Positions 1 through 14,290 of a stretch of 37,348 nt of DNA are shown in pieces. The stretch comes from an uncultured Mycoplasmatota bacterium (GTDB lineage: Bacteria > Bacillota_I > Bacilli_A > RF39 > UBA660): NCBI GenBank assembly GCA_947649365.1, contig CANSRH010000018.1, positions 1-37,348 on the forward strand, in the 5' to 3' direction. The notes beneath the pieces are model-generated. The model did no database searches. It saw only the letters and a program-made list of their open reading frames with translations, and was not told the DNA's origin. Position numbers and translations under genes: made by a program. How positions within the stretch are numbered: position 1 is the stretch's first letter; each line of letters opens with the position of its first letter.

Positions 1-263
1 ATACTTCTGTCAATTGGATGGCTTCTGTTATATCCTTGTATTCTATTTTGATACAGCTACTTTCTAGTACATTTATTTCTTTTTGACTTGTATAATACGC
101 TATGTATGCATACGTGATTCCTATCACTACTGTTACTAGACAAATTGTACTCAGTATTACTAATAGTTTCTTCTGGTTCCTTCTTGGGTCTTTTTTACTA
201 TTTAATGTACCCCCCCCCCAGGACGGTTCCTGAAGTTGGGAGGATTTGTTTTTCTTTTTTCAT
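1..263 (-). CDS. Secreted or membrane-anchored protein, 3'-partial, frame broken by a G10 tract (candidate phase-variable, OFF state)
   Basis: An ATG at 263-261 follows a perfect GGAGG (271-275) with 7-nt spacing and a good promoter, but as written the frame runs only 21 codons and stops at TAG (198-200), just after a run of ten G. If the run is 9 or 12 G, translation continues in the other frame with no stop to the window edge. That product has a basic stretch (KKDPRRNQKK), a hydrophobic segment (LLVILSTICLVTVVIGI) and then TYAYIAYYTS, resembling the signal regions of TasA/SipW-type secreted proteins of Bacillota. The open frame has no start of its own downstream of the tract. Function is unknown and the C-terminus lies outside the window. 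A homopolymer sequencing error is the main alternative to phase variation. Confidence 0.6.
210..219. repeat. Homopolymer C10 (G10 on the coding strand) inside a reading frame
   Basis: Ten consecutive C on the plus strand, read as G10 in codons 15-18 of the left-edge gene. One base fewer, or two more, joins the start codon to the long downstream frame. Runs of this length are far outside expectation for DNA of about 30% G+C, and the only other G/C runs of 8 or more in the window are at 11350-11359 and 14268-14275. Confidence 0.9.
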
Positions 264-10015: not shown

Positions 10016-11320
10016 TTAATAAGATTTTGTCTTTTTAATGATTAGATATGCTATACCAATCACTGACCCTATGGCCAATGTAGAATAAAATGGTATATTC
10101 AATGTTCCTGTTTGGGCATTGTTTGATTTTTCTTTTTCTTCAACTAACACGTATTCACTACAATGTTCTAAACTAAATTCTACATAGCCTTCTTTTACTT
10201 CCAAGTTCTTCACAACTTCTTCAAGTTCTCCTTTGTCATTGTAATAATATAAACTTACTTGTTTTCCATTTTCAAATGTCTTATTTACATTTACTTTGAC
10301 TTGTGTTCCTTTTGGTAGTTCTCCATGATGTCCAAATTCTAGTACCAATGCTTTTTGTTCGTTTGCTACAAGACTCACGATTTTCTCTTTGTTGGTACTT
10401 TCTCCAATTTTTACATTCAAGTCAACATTTAAATCTGTATTTTCTATTTTACTTCCATCAAATGTCCACATATATAAAACGTTTCTTTCTTCGTCGTTAC
10501 TATAACCATTTATAGAAGCGATGTATCCATTTTGTTTAATAATTTCTAATGTTTTATTATTGATTTGAGAATTTTCTCCGACCGAAACTTCAATTTCTTT
10601 ATTTCCAAAGACAGCATCTACTTCTTCCATCATTTCTTCTAGTGTTTTTTGTTGCCAGTTTTGAATTTCTATTGTTTTTGTCATGCCAACTTCTTCATTT
10701 TCTAAGTATTGGACAGCAATGAAAAGGATATAGTCTTCGTTGGTTTCTCCAGCGCCAATGGGCCATTCAGGGTATTTTGTTTCTATTGTATTTATTAATT
10801 CGCTTGTGAGGTCATGTCCTTTTTCAACACTTTCTACTTTATTCTCCTTTGTATTATAGACAATTGTTTCATAGTCATAATTTTTATCTTTTAAAAAGAT
10901 TTCTACTAGAATATCTGCAGTTGCAAAACTTTCATTTTGCATTTCGTAATATTGGGCAAGTGTCATACCAGAGGTGAGTGCTGTATCTTTAATTGTTGTT
11001 CCTTCTACTTTGGTTGCGATACAAGTAGTTGTATTCGGAACAATAATCATTCCATCAGTTTCACAAACTCCATCAAAACAACTACTGCCAAAGAATTGAT
11101 AGTCTGTACTTCTTATACTAATATTCATCGTTGCATTCGCATTTGTTAAATCAATATCTTTTTTCAGTTCAAATTTTACAGCCATTTTATTCTCTTCTTT
11201 TACAACGCATAGTTTACTTAGGTCAATAAAATCAGAGGTCAGTTCTTCTGCACTTACATTTGCTGTGATACATAGTGTAAATAATGCAAGTATTATTCCT
11301 ATTATTTTCTTTTTCTTCAT
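10016..11320 (-). CDS. Sortase-anchored surface protein A (NAQTG sorting signal), predicted phase-OFF
   Basis: A secreted protein of 434 residues from the ATG at 11320, which has AGGAG 5 nt upstream. The in-frame ATG at 11341 lies only 2 bp from the -10 box and cannot be used. A signal peptide (MKKKKIIGIILALFTLCITANVSA) precedes an acidic extracellular region with a Cys-containing N-domain (SSCFDGVC, TTCIA). The C-terminus is a cell-wall sorting signal: NNAQTGT, hydrophobic helix (YSTLAIGSVIGIAYLII) and KKTKSY. The module before it (LYYYNDKGELEEVV, LEHCSEYVLVEE) is homologous to that of surface protein B at 12711. The sortase gene lies directly upstream, facing the same way. The promoter contains a G10 tract that stretches its spacer to 19 bp. 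The ligand or role is unknown; adhesin is a reasonable guess. Confidence 0.82.
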   Translation of the reverse strand: MKKKKIIGIILALFTLCITANVSAEELTSDFIDLSKLCVVKEENKMAVKFELKKDIDLTNANATMNISIRSTDYQFFGSSCFDGVCETDGMIIVPNTTTCIATKVEGTTIKDTALTSGMTLAQYYEMQNESFATADILVEIFLKDKNYDYETIVYNTKENKVESVEKGHDLTSELINTIETKYPEWPIGAGETNEDYILFIAVQYLENEEVGMTKTIEIQNWQQKTLEEMMEEVDAVFGNKEIEVSVGENSQINNKTLEIIKQNGYIASINGYSNDEERNVLYMWTFDGSKIENTDLNVDLNVKIGESTNKEKIVSLVANEQKALVLEFGHHGELPKGTQVKVNVNKTFENGKQVSLYYYNDKGELEEVVKNLEVKEGYVEFSLEHCSEYVLVEEKEKSNNAQTGTLNIPFYSTLAIGSVIGIAYLIIKKTKSY

Positions 11321-11343: not shown

Positions 11344-11374
11344 ATTATACCCCCCCCCCGAAAACTTTTGTCAA
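11344..11374 (-). promoter_or_regulatory. Promoter of surface protein A with G10 in the -35/-10 spacer (19 bp)
   Basis: Minus strand: consensus -35 TTGACA (11369-11374), then AAAGTTTTC plus ten G (19 bp), then consensus -10 TATAAT (11344-11349). Both hexamers are perfect, so the spacer length is what limits strength. Eight G would give the optimal 17 bp. The sister promoter at 14262-14290 has the same layout with exactly eight G. Confidence 0.8.
11350..11359. repeat. Homopolymer C10 within a promoter spacer
   Basis: Ten C on the plus strand abutting the -10 box of surface protein A. Slipped-strand length change here would alter promoter spacing, as known for poly-C or dinucleotide promoter switches in Neisseria and Haemophilus surface genes. 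Confidence 0.9.
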
Positions 11375-11383
11375 GGAAAATAT

Positions 11384-11401
11384 TTACCATAATTTTGGTA
11401 A
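11384..11401. promoter_or_regulatory. Inverted repeat upstream of the surface protein A promoter
   Basis: ttacca-N6-tggtaa, ending 10 bp upstream of the -35 box. The sister promoter has the same TTACCAA half at the corresponding distance (14309-14316 on the plus strand as ttggtaa), so it may be a shared activator or repressor site. Confidence 0.4.
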
Positions 11402-11439
11402 AAATAAAGCAAAAAAAAAGAAAACCATCTAGTCTACTT

Positions 11440-12606
11440 TTACTTTATTAATTTGGCATGAATAACTCTTCTTCGTGTAGTTCCATGCGGTCCTGCACAA
11501 GTGGAAAGGGTAAGTATCTTATCATTTGTAGTCACATTTACTCCTCGATTGCCATAACTTCTACTTTTGATTGTTTTTAAAAATTGTTGGTAGTCCTTTG
11601 TACTTCCGAATGAAGTAGTTATGTAATATTCTTCACTTTCAATGACGTAATAACTAAAGATTTGGTATTTTCGCAAGTTGTGGTTAGTATCAAAAATATA
11701 AATAATATCTGCATTTTCCGTGTCAAAAAATTCTTTTTTAAAGACATCTGACAAAGAACCAAACATCGTATTGTTTGGGGTATGGTGTCCAAACAAAACT
11801 ACATTCTTATCTTCCCAAGAAGTATTTCGGTAGTCCATGAAAATAGCACCAACAGAATTTTCTTTATTTTTAAAGGAATGGTTTAAATAGTATTCGTTAT
11901 TGGTGGTTTGAACTAAGGGGTTGTTTATGTATTTGTTATTGAAAACCATCCACCCTACAATGTCTTTATTGGTTTGTTTTAGTTTGGCAAAATCAATTTT
12001 CATGTCTTCAATTTTTTTTTCTTCCTTTATCTCTTCATAAACTTCAGGAGGTTCTACAAATTCTTCAATGATGTTTTCTTTTTCTTCCACAATTTCATTG
12101 AGTTCTTTTTTAAAGAAAAAGAGTTTATAAGTAGAAAAAAGAAAAATGGTGCTAAATAGAAGAAAGAAGAAAATAGAGAGTATATTCCGGTATTTTGTTT
12201 TTAATTTATGTTTCTTTTTTATGGGTTGTTCTTTTTTTCTTGTAGATTGTTTCATTGAGTTTCTAATGCTCTTCTTTGATGCTCCCGTTTTTTGGGGAGT
12301 TGTTTGTTTTACTTGTTTGCTTTTTGCCCTTTTCTTTTTTTCTGGTTCTTTCAAGTAAGCATTGTCAAAATCTTCGTATTTGCTTTCTTCTTTTGGTAGA
12401 GTTAATTTTTTTGCTTTTGCTGGAACACTTAAGGATGTTGTTTTTATTTTTGAAGTAGTTGTTTGTTTGTTTTTATTTGTATTTGAAGATGTTTTTGTCT
12501 TTGTTTGATTGTTAGATTTTTGGGCCACTTGTTTTTTAGTTTTCGGTGGTATTTCCTTTTTCTTACTTTTATTATTAGTACTTTTTTTCTTTTCTTTTGT
12601 TGGCAT
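11440..12606 (-). CDS. srtB: Class-B-like sortase with a long lysine-rich cytoplasmic N-terminus
   Basis: A 388-residue transpeptidase from the ATG at 12606, 9 nt after GGAGG; an ATG nine bases upstream abuts the RBS and is rejected. Residues 1-140 are extremely Lys/Thr/Ser/Gln-rich and probably disordered in the cytoplasm. One membrane helix follows (about 143-165), then an acidic linker and the sortase domain (about 205-388). The class B-type order is visible: GWMVFNNKYINNPLVQ, FGHHT with the catalytic His, TLSTCAG with the catalytic Cys, and RRRVIHAKL with the catalytic Arg. It joins surface proteins cleaved between T and G of the sorting motif to peptidoglycan. The two flanking genes end in NAQTG signals and are the likely substrates. 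It has its own promoter without a homopolymer. Confidence 0.9.
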   Translation of the reverse strand: MPTKEKKKSTNNKSKKKEIPPKTKKQVAQKSNNQTKTKTSSNTNKNKQTTTSKIKTTSLSVPAKAKKLTLPKEESKYEDFDNAYLKEPEKKKRAKSKQVKQTTPQKTGASKKSIRNSMKQSTRKKEQPIKKKHKLKTKYRNILSIFFFLLFSTIFLFSTYKLFFFKKELNEIVEEKENIIEEFVEPPEVYEEIKEEKKIEDMKIDFAKLKQTNKDIVGWMVFNNKYINNPLVQTTNNEYYLNHSFKNKENSVGAIFMDYRNTSWEDKNVVLFGHHTPNNTMFGSLSDVFKKEFFDTENADIIYIFDTNHNLRKYQIFSYYVIESEEYYITTSFGSTKDYQQFLKTIKSRSYGNRGVNVTTNDKILTLSTCAGPHGTTRRRVIHAKLIK

Positions 12607-12631
12607 TACAATCATCCTCCTTTTTCACAAA

Positions 12632-12661
12632 ATAATACTCTTATCTTTTTCATTCTGTCAA
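12632..12661 (-). promoter_or_regulatory. Sortase promoter
   Basis: Minus strand: -35 TTGACA (12656-12661), 18-bp spacer with no G/C tract, -10 TATTAT (12632-12637). Expression of the enzyme is therefore independent of the switches predicted for its substrates. Confidence 0.65.
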
Positions 12662-12663
12662 TC

Positions 12664-12705
12664 AAAAAAGAAAACGTCTTGAAATTTTTTCGTAAACGTT
12701 TCTTT
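12664..12705 (-). terminator. Terminator between surface protein B and the sortase
   Basis: Minus strand: arm AAAGAAACGT (12696-12705), loop, arm ACGTTTTCTTTTTT (12664-12677), imperfect by one base, ending in a T run. It separates the surface protein B transcript from the sortase promoter just downstream. Confidence 0.6.
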
Positions 12706-12710
12706 CATTT

Positions 12711-14234
12711 TTATTTTTCGGTTTTCTTTTTTACTAGGATTCCAATGATTCCTACAAGAGAAGTAAGAGCAAATGTACCATATAGAACAACATTTAATGT
12801 TCCCGTTTGAGCATTGTTTGACTTTTTCTCTTTTTTTACATAATTGCTTGTTAATACGTAAGAAGAAAAGTGGTCAAATGTTAATTCGATTTTATCGTCG
12901 ATTGCTTTTAAATTTTCTGCAACCACTTCCATTTCGTCTTTTTCAGGGTTGTAGTATAGTAAAGTGAACGCTGTATTTTTAAGATACTCTTCTAGCTCTT
13001 TGGTATATTTTTCTTCTAGATTGTTATCGGTCCAACATTTACTTAGTTTATCATAGTCTTCTTTAAAAGAAGCGCAATATTGATCAATTAATTTATTGCC
13101 AATGATTTCTCCAATATAGTCTCTTATATTGACACTTAGTTTGTATTCTGTTGGTAAACTACCATGATAGGTAAAATCAATATAAATAGCGTCTTTGACA
13201 TCAACCAAATTATCAATTTTATCTTTGTTGATAGATGTTTCCATAGAGATGTTATGATTGTAAGTAAAGCCTTCTTCCACTTCATTTTTGATTTCTTTTC
13301 CATTTAGAAAATAGATTGATTCTCCAACATTTGTATATTGTCTAAATAGAACCGTAATGTCTTTTCCTTTTAAAGCATTGATGACTGCACTTAAATCTTC
13401 ATTCTCTGAAATATAATAGGTAAAGTTGTATTCTTTTTTGGTATCATAATCTTCTTGGGTTGGAATCAAGTTTTTGTATTTTTCTAAATTGTTCAAAATT
13501 TGTGCTAGACCTTTACTCATATTAGAAGCATCATAATTCGGTCCTACAGATTCTCCAAAATCATAAGCTTTTATTGTCCAATCTAAAGTGATGTCTTGAT
13601 GTCCTGCTGCACTTAGTGTTAGTGTAGCTTTTCCTAAATCTTTTGCATAGGAAATAACTTCAGTTGCATTTTTAGGTTCTGCCGATAAACGATAAGCTTC
13701 CCACCATGTTTTTGGCTCAGTTTTATATTCACTATATTCCCACCATGTAGGTTTTTGTGTATATTCACTGTTGCAATATTGTTTGTCTTGTGAAAAATTT
13801 CCATTTTCGTCCACACAACCTTCATAATCTCTTAAAAATTCTTCAAATGTTGCTTTATTAAATTCTTCGATGTAACTTTCGTAATTTTGTTTTTCGTAAG
13901 AGAAATCATAAGGTCTTGTTATAGCTGTTACTATATTTTCATTACTACTTTTAATTGTTATTTCTCCTATATTGTCAAAAACTAAATTGTATGTACCTGG
14001 AGTTGGATTAAATTTCGTATCATAGCCTCCACAGCCACCATACCTTATCGATTCTTCTTTGGTCATGTTTTGCCACTCGCTTAAATAAGAAGGTCCATTT
14101 AATCCACATCCCGTATATCCTTGTATAGGTGTTTCTTTAAAATATTCTTCCCAGTAACCATCCGCGTAGACGTTTGTACTTCCTAAAAAAAGTACTGTTG
14201 TTAATAAAATTGCGTAACTCAAAACTCTTTTCAT
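12711..14234 (-). CDS. Sortase-anchored surface protein B (NAQTG sorting signal), predicted phase-ON
   Basis: A 507-residue secreted protein. The signal peptide (to about residue 24, VYADG) is followed by an aromatic, Cys-containing N-domain (GYTGCGLNGPS, GCGGYD, EGCVDENG, CNSEY), a middle domain and a C-terminal module shared with surface protein A (LLYYNPEKDEMEVV, FDHFSSYVLTSNY). It ends with NNAQTGT, a hydrophobic helix (LYGTFALTSLVGIIGILV) and KKKTEK, a sorting signal for the adjacent sortase. AAAGGA lies 8 nt before the ATG. Its promoter contains G8 and an optimal 17-bp spacer, so it is predicted to be the expressed partner. I do not recognise an adhesive or enzymatic domain in the N-terminal half. 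Confidence 0.82.
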   Translation of the reverse strand: MKRVLSYAILLTTVLFLGSTNVYADGYWEEYFKETPIQGYTGCGLNGPSYLSEWQNMTKEESIRYGGCGGYDTKFNPTPGTYNLVFDNIGEITIKSSNENIVTAITRPYDFSYEKQNYESYIEEFNKATFEEFLRDYEGCVDENGNFSQDKQYCNSEYTQKPTWWEYSEYKTEPKTWWEAYRLSAEPKNATEVISYAKDLGKATLTLSAAGHQDITLDWTIKAYDFGESVGPNYDASNMSKGLAQILNNLEKYKNLIPTQEDYDTKKEYNFTYYISENEDLSAVINALKGKDITVLFRQYTNVGESIYFLNGKEIKNEVEEGFTYNHNISMETSINKDKIDNLVDVKDAIYIDFTYHGSLPTEYKLSVNIRDYIGEIIGNKLIDQYCASFKEDYDKLSKCWTDNNLEEKYTKELEEYLKNTAFTLLYYNPEKDEMEVVAENLKAIDDKIELTFDHFSSYVLTSNYVKKEKKSNNAQTGTLNVVLYGTFALTSLVGIIGILVKKKTEK

Positions 14235-14261
14235 TTTTCAATTCCTTTCTTTGATAAGCAC

Positions 14262-14290
14262 ATTATACCCCCCCCGAAACTTTTTGTCAA
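14262..14290 (-). promoter_or_regulatory. Promoter of surface protein B with G8 in the -35/-10 spacer (17 bp)
   Basis: Minus strand: -35 TTGACA (14285-14290), AAAAGTTTC plus eight G (17 bp), -10 TATAAT (14262-14267). Identical architecture to 11344-11374 apart from tract length. The shared sequence extends upstream through CCTTGACAAAA and a TTACCAA element. Confidence 0.82.
14268..14275. repeat. Homopolymer C8 within a promoter spacer
   Basis: Eight C on the plus strand abutting the -10 box of surface protein B. A gain or loss of bases would move the spacer away from 17 bp. Confidence 0.9.

Follow-up and report, generated by a model that had tools for sequence, protein, structure and literature searches.

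Poly-G tracts in the promoter spacers of two putative sortase substrates of an uncultured RF39 bacterium: candidates for porA-type slippage switching

The question raised by this locus is whether two surface-protein genes flanking a sortase gene are switched by length changes of a G tract lying between the -35 and -10 boxes of their promoters. The window, that is, the whole stretch of 37,348 nucleotides analysed here, has a G+C content of 30% and belongs to a genome of 1.47 Mb assembled in 43 contigs. Its host is an uncultured member of RF39, a group that keeps srtA/B sortases, RFN20 and ML615J-28 being without them (PMC10868615). The habitat is probably the gut, judging from the RF39 placement. 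The relevant features are:

210-219, minus strand: G10 tract within the first codons of a gene that belongs to a surface-protein family and runs off the left edge of the window, out of frame as assembled
10016-11320, minus strand: putative sortase substrate 1, with a signal peptide and a C-terminal NNAQTGT motif, hydrophobic segment and basic tail
11344-11374, minus strand: promoter of substrate 1 (direct reading and pattern search), a 19-bp spacer with G10 between TTGACA and TATAAT; from -35 to -10, TTGACA 11374-11369, AAAGTTTTC, G10 11359-11350, TATAAT 11349-11344
11440-12615, minus strand: class B sortase (TIGR03064, 182.3 bits for a cut-off of 153.75; Pfam PF04203)
12632-12661, minus strand: promoter of the sortase, TTGACA-18-TATTAT, near-consensus and without a tract
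12711-14234, minus strand: putative sortase substrate 2, with a signal peptide and a C-terminal NNAQTGT sorting motif; orthologues at 82% (G001) and 50% (G011) identity
14262-14290, minus strand: promoter of substrate 2 (direct reading, promoter score 12/12), a 17-bp spacer with G8 between TTGACA and TATAAT; from -35 to -10, TTGACA 14290-14285, AAAAGTTTC, G8 14275-14268, TATAAT 14267-14262

Direct reading bears out what the initial annotation had described at the two genes flanking the sortase, namely perfect TTGACA and TATAAT boxes enclosing a G tract, with exactly the tract and spacer lengths given above, and a fixed, tract-free promoter for the sortase itself. Its further statement that only tract length differs between the two promoters holds for the size of the non-tract spacer, which is 9 bp in both, but not for its letters, which are unlike. 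The start of substrate 1 (MKKKKIIG...) is also where it had been placed, at the ATG 11320-11318, since the earliest ATG in that open frame (11341) is only 3 bp from the -10 box. Both substrates are intact genes with a homopolymer between recognisable -35 and -10 boxes, the arrangement of porA and fetA. Tracts of the Bifidobacterium type, located in the coding sequence, are absent from both on direct reading, their tracts being promoter tracts.

The two proteins combine a signal peptide, a sorting motif (NNAQTGT in both), a hydrophobic segment and a basic tail, a heuristic signature that makes them putative substrates of the neighbouring class B sortase. Neither scores above any family cut-off in Pfam and NCBIfam profile searches, and the structure predicted for substrate 2 together with three orthologues reached a pLDDT of 46, too low for a fold search. 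Sortase loci of the genus that are more distant (L102-L107) are tract-free within the stretches covered, so that this sortase is not generally accompanied by the switch. At another sortase locus of the genus (G021:C69; L109, tract at 142), the substrate promoter reads TTGACA-A-G11-TTTAAATGC-TATAAT, with a spacer of 21 bp.

The reading favoured here, to which we assign a probability of roughly 0.82 on comparative sequence grounds, is that promoter strength is switched by slippage as in porA, and that both promoters are part of a genome-wide G-tract contingency set. The two sites would be core promoters of the sigma-A type, in which a slippage-prone G tract sets the distance between the -35 and -10 boxes. 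Gain or loss of Gs through replication slippage would shift the spacer over about 15-20 bp and change promoter strength, the gene being expressed with a spacer near 16-18 bp and weak or off at 19 bp or more. As assembled, substrate 2 (17 bp) would be near-optimal and high and substrate 1 (19 bp) weak or off, and the sortase would remain constitutive while its substrates switch. From this we infer slippage within populations, a link between spacer and expression, independence of the two switches with four expression states, and a selective role in surface variation.

G tracts of this kind are not expected from base composition. The window has three G runs of at least 8, whereas shuffled sequence gave 0.39 overlapping 7-mers on average. 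Genome-wide there are 43 runs of at least 7 and about 36 of at least 8, including two contig-end sequencing artefacts, which leaves about 34 genuine runs where dinucleotide frequencies predict about 2 per genome. Eight of the promoters in the source genome have a tract between perfect boxes, and imperfect boxes flank at least three further tracts. The pattern extends to the genus (36 perfect-box tract promoters in 14 of 22 genomes), the family (24 of 193 genomes, 23 of 148 genera) and the class (23 of 395 genomes, 16 of 193 genera, at least seven families), and the reversed-pattern control gave 0 at each of these levels. With 36 promoters in the genus and none in the reversed pattern, a chance origin is excluded. 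A scan of viral contigs for tract promoters returned six scattered matches in unrelated DNA and was set aside as uninformative.

Comparison of orthologous promoters reveals tracts that are kept and lengths that vary between species. At the sister-species locus (L099, CAMUBM010000025.1), the gene order is the same (substrate 2, sortase, substrate 1) and each of the two promoters has a G9 tract, with spacers of 19 bp for substrate 2 and 18 bp for substrate 1; the substrate 2 orthologue of G011 has G8 and a 16-bp spacer. Tract lengths are therefore G10/G9 for substrate 1 and G8/G9/G8 for substrate 2, a difference between relatives of the porA/fetA kind, seen here at the level of species. Spacers of orthologous promoters are 17/19/16 bp for substrate 2, 19/18 bp for substrate 1, 19/19/18/19 bp for an ABC-transporter ATPase and 15/19 bp for MSIxTK. 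An alignment of five promoters shows the -35 and -10 boxes and the tract core unchanged and drift in the remainder, and a similar pattern is found at other orthologous promoters, those of the ABC-transporter ATPase (five species), a DUF3419-like gene and two unknowns. All these lengths are single assembled values, and Illumina sequencing is unreliable at G tracts. The sortase frame of the sister species is broken as assembled (about 6500-6582 of L099; G001:C25) where an A run differs by one base, which is either real or an assembly error.

Length variation is also seen inside single genomes, where the number of Gs is not the same in promoters whose flanks are almost identical (G13-G16 in G174, G10-G11 in G153, G9-G12 in G100). 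The paralogous promoters of G140 are almost invariant, nearly all with G9 and a 19-bp spacer, which counts against switching. Whether the tract and the rest of the spacer compensate for each other in length also depends on this genome (p about 0.02 with G140, about 0.2 without it), and compensation was consequently dropped as evidence.

Further evidence comes from the spacer length on which the tracts act. Promoters of the genus with perfect boxes and no tract provide a fixed set of 111 distinct members among the matches listed; within these listed matches, the spacer is 16-18 bp in 92 of 111 and 19 bp in only 2, whereas 12 of the 36 tract promoters of the genus have 19 bp. Spacers of at least 19 bp occur in 13 of 36 tract promoters versus 12 of 111 fixed promoters among the matches listed (Fisher p=0.0014). 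Two tracts are interrupted and, from their sequence, should not slip, and both have an 18-bp spacer: that of the G011 homologue of substrate 1 (G5AAG3, GGGGGAAGGG) and that of G001:C126 (GGGGGGAGGG). Start codons lie mostly about 25-60 bp downstream of tract promoters. The contrast between fixed and tract spacers, together with the interrupted tracts at 18 bp, fits the porA model, for which a 17-bp spacer is given as optimal (PMC7864442, citing van der Ende 1995), and thus predicts high expression of substrate 2 and low expression of substrate 1.

Other explanations of the tracts have to be weighed against slippage switching. They might be by-products of mutation biased towards lengthening short G runs, in which case their length would vary neutrally and have hardly any selected effect on expression. 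Housekeeping genes do carry tracts as well, and thyA (G000:C17; L056/L150) has G10 in its promoter spacer plus an in-frame G10 in its codons. Its relatives (L151, L152) have a G4 run and a promoter without a tract, so that ACC-G10-AG compared with ACAAAAGGGGAA represents growth of the G4 run, the promoter tract was gained too, and the gain in this housekeeping gene is lineage-specific. This shows that G runs are subject to an expanding bias, which may have supplied the material for those promoter switches that became fixed. As a full account it is nevertheless improbable, since many tracts sit precisely within the spacers of perfect -35/-10 pairs with no match to the reversed control in 22, 193 and 395 genomes, the same early codons are hit across a paralogous surface-protein family, and tracts are kept at orthologous promoters in spite of flank divergence. 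Loss of mismatch repair was likewise rejected as the cause of the tracts: MutS is found in 20 of the 22 genomes of the genus, including the source genome, and repair is not obviously lost.

A role of the tract as a regulator binding site or DNA-structure element, instead of a spacer-length switch, would agree with its motif-like context, as it is usually preceded by C and followed by T/TATAAT. Yet tract length and offset from the -35 box both vary, similar tracts occur in coding frames, where length counts and binding does not, and the two broken-tract promoters retain an 18-bp spacer, all of which makes such a role quite unlikely. We give the least credence to the idea that two-colour Illumina poly-G produced the tracts or their lengths artefactually in sequencing or assembly, even though genuine artefacts of this type are present at contig ends (G48 in C37, the start of C23). 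Internal tracts are flanked by unique sequence on either side, their positions are meaningful, and they turn up again in independently assembled genomes at the orthologous promoters; exact lengths could be 1-2 off, but for tract presence the artefact explanation is largely refuted. Four contigs of the source genome (C11, C23, C37 and C6) end at tract promoters, some in runaway poly-G of up to G48, and short-read artefacts break assemblies there.

Slippage switching, as put forward by the initial annotation, thus has strong comparative support in kept tracts, changing lengths and flanks, 19-bp spacers and interrupted tracts at 18 bp. The two-gene frame in which it was placed is too narrow: the set is genome-wide and class-wide, and non-surface genes are driven as well. 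Only about one-third of the tract-promoter genes of the genus are surface-protein-like, the rest including the ABC ATPase and cytoplasmic proteins. In addition, the source genome contains 13 paralogous genes for N-terminally anchored surface proteins with G9-G11 in their first codons (window 210-219, minus strand; L037, L038, L040, L042, L045-L047, L050, L054, L055, L058, L063). In the assembly twelve of the 13 are out of frame and L050 is in frame (binomial p=0.04 against one-third in frame).

Coding G tracts are found in other genes too. L049 and L067 are long proteins with N-terminal regions that look sigma-factor-like by eye and coding tracts of G9-G10, L067 being out of frame as assembled; it is possible that they are phase-variable regulators. 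Further coding tracts lie in L060:1673 (minus strand), L048 and L057, respectively Fic-domain-like (by eye), a CDP-alcohol phosphatidyltransferase (PssA-like) and guanylate-kinase-like (by eye).

Other genera display tract promoters in arrays. A tandem array in G541 (C6:5000-28500; L196, L197) comprises seven sortase substrates, each with its own tract promoter and with a 19-bp spacer at six of them and 18 bp at one. Five consecutive sortase substrates in G048 (C25; L137) each have their own poly-G-spaced promoter, and G140 has about 20 tract promoters, with surface proteins downstream in the four that have a readable gene. Among the loci examined, N-terminal hydrophobic segments are found in 54 of 78 tract-promoter genes versus 71 of 202, and sorting-like C termini in 16 of 66 versus 6 of 202; these loci are non-random, include the arrays and outside the genus were partly picked as multi-copy, so that p-values are inflated by pseudo-replication. 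We lean slightly towards a wider reading, a class-wide contingency system of uncultured Bacilli in which arrays of surface proteins, sortase-anchored and others, would each have one near-consensus promoter with poly-G. Most members would be off or weak at about 19 bp, the loss of one or two Gs would turn single members on, and a combinatorial repertoire would be displayed with a constitutive sortase.

If slippage switching is correct, Bacilli that are uncultured and apparently live in the gut diversify their surface by promoter slippage similar to that of Neisseria. Stochastic switching would then account for much of the apparent strain variation in surface proteins and could be read from existing metagenomic reads. 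The relation of G count to transcript level is a testable prediction for organisms without a cultured model, and a tract within a promoter spacer offers a simple sequence signature of phase-variable surface genes in assembled genomes.

Several known systems resemble this one in part. The fimbrial promoter of Haemophilus influenzae contains dinucleotide TA repeats common to two divergent genes. Promoter-region indels control these fimbriae (mentioned in PMC9187656), and the likeness is that of a surface structure under promoter-region length change. Bifidobacterium breve has two sortase pilus clusters switched by G tracts, with four states and the tract in the coding sequence; real tract-length distributions are unlike the annotated sequence, a poly-G read artefact is described, and promoter-spacer G tracts are mentioned in the same strain without detail (PMC9187656). 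The likeness here lies in a gut commensal with sortase substrates, G tracts and two independent switches, but B. breve belongs to Actinomycetota and its tract shifts the pilin reading frame, whereas the present tracts set promoter spacing. Within Bacillota, a T tract upstream of the LPXTG protein R28 of Streptococcus pyogenes (Spy1336/R28) alters transcript level (PMC7098570). This is also a homopolymer indel upstream of an anchored surface protein, although it involves a T tract, a divergent intergenic region and direct-repeat spacing instead of a G tract between -35 and -10 boxes. The literature searched yielded no report for the present lineage, and genome surveys of the relevant orders contained neither 'phase vari' nor 'homopolymer'. 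B. breve (PMC9187656) and S. pyogenes (PMC7098570) are closer precedents than those named in the initial annotation.

The mechanism itself is already known from Neisseria porA. In N. meningitidis porA (poly-G), and in gonococcal fetA, for which poly-C phase variation in the promoter spacer is documented (PMC5320596), a homopolymer between the -35 and -10 boxes sets the spacer and the targets are surface proteins, as proposed here. There, the switched products are outer-membrane proteins of Gram-negative pathogens, and few genes per genome are involved. The targets described here are sortase substrates, along with other genes, in uncultured Bacilli; a single genome may have as many as about 20 such promoters, and tandem arrays occur. 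It is the host group, the sortase-substrate targets and the array scale that look new.
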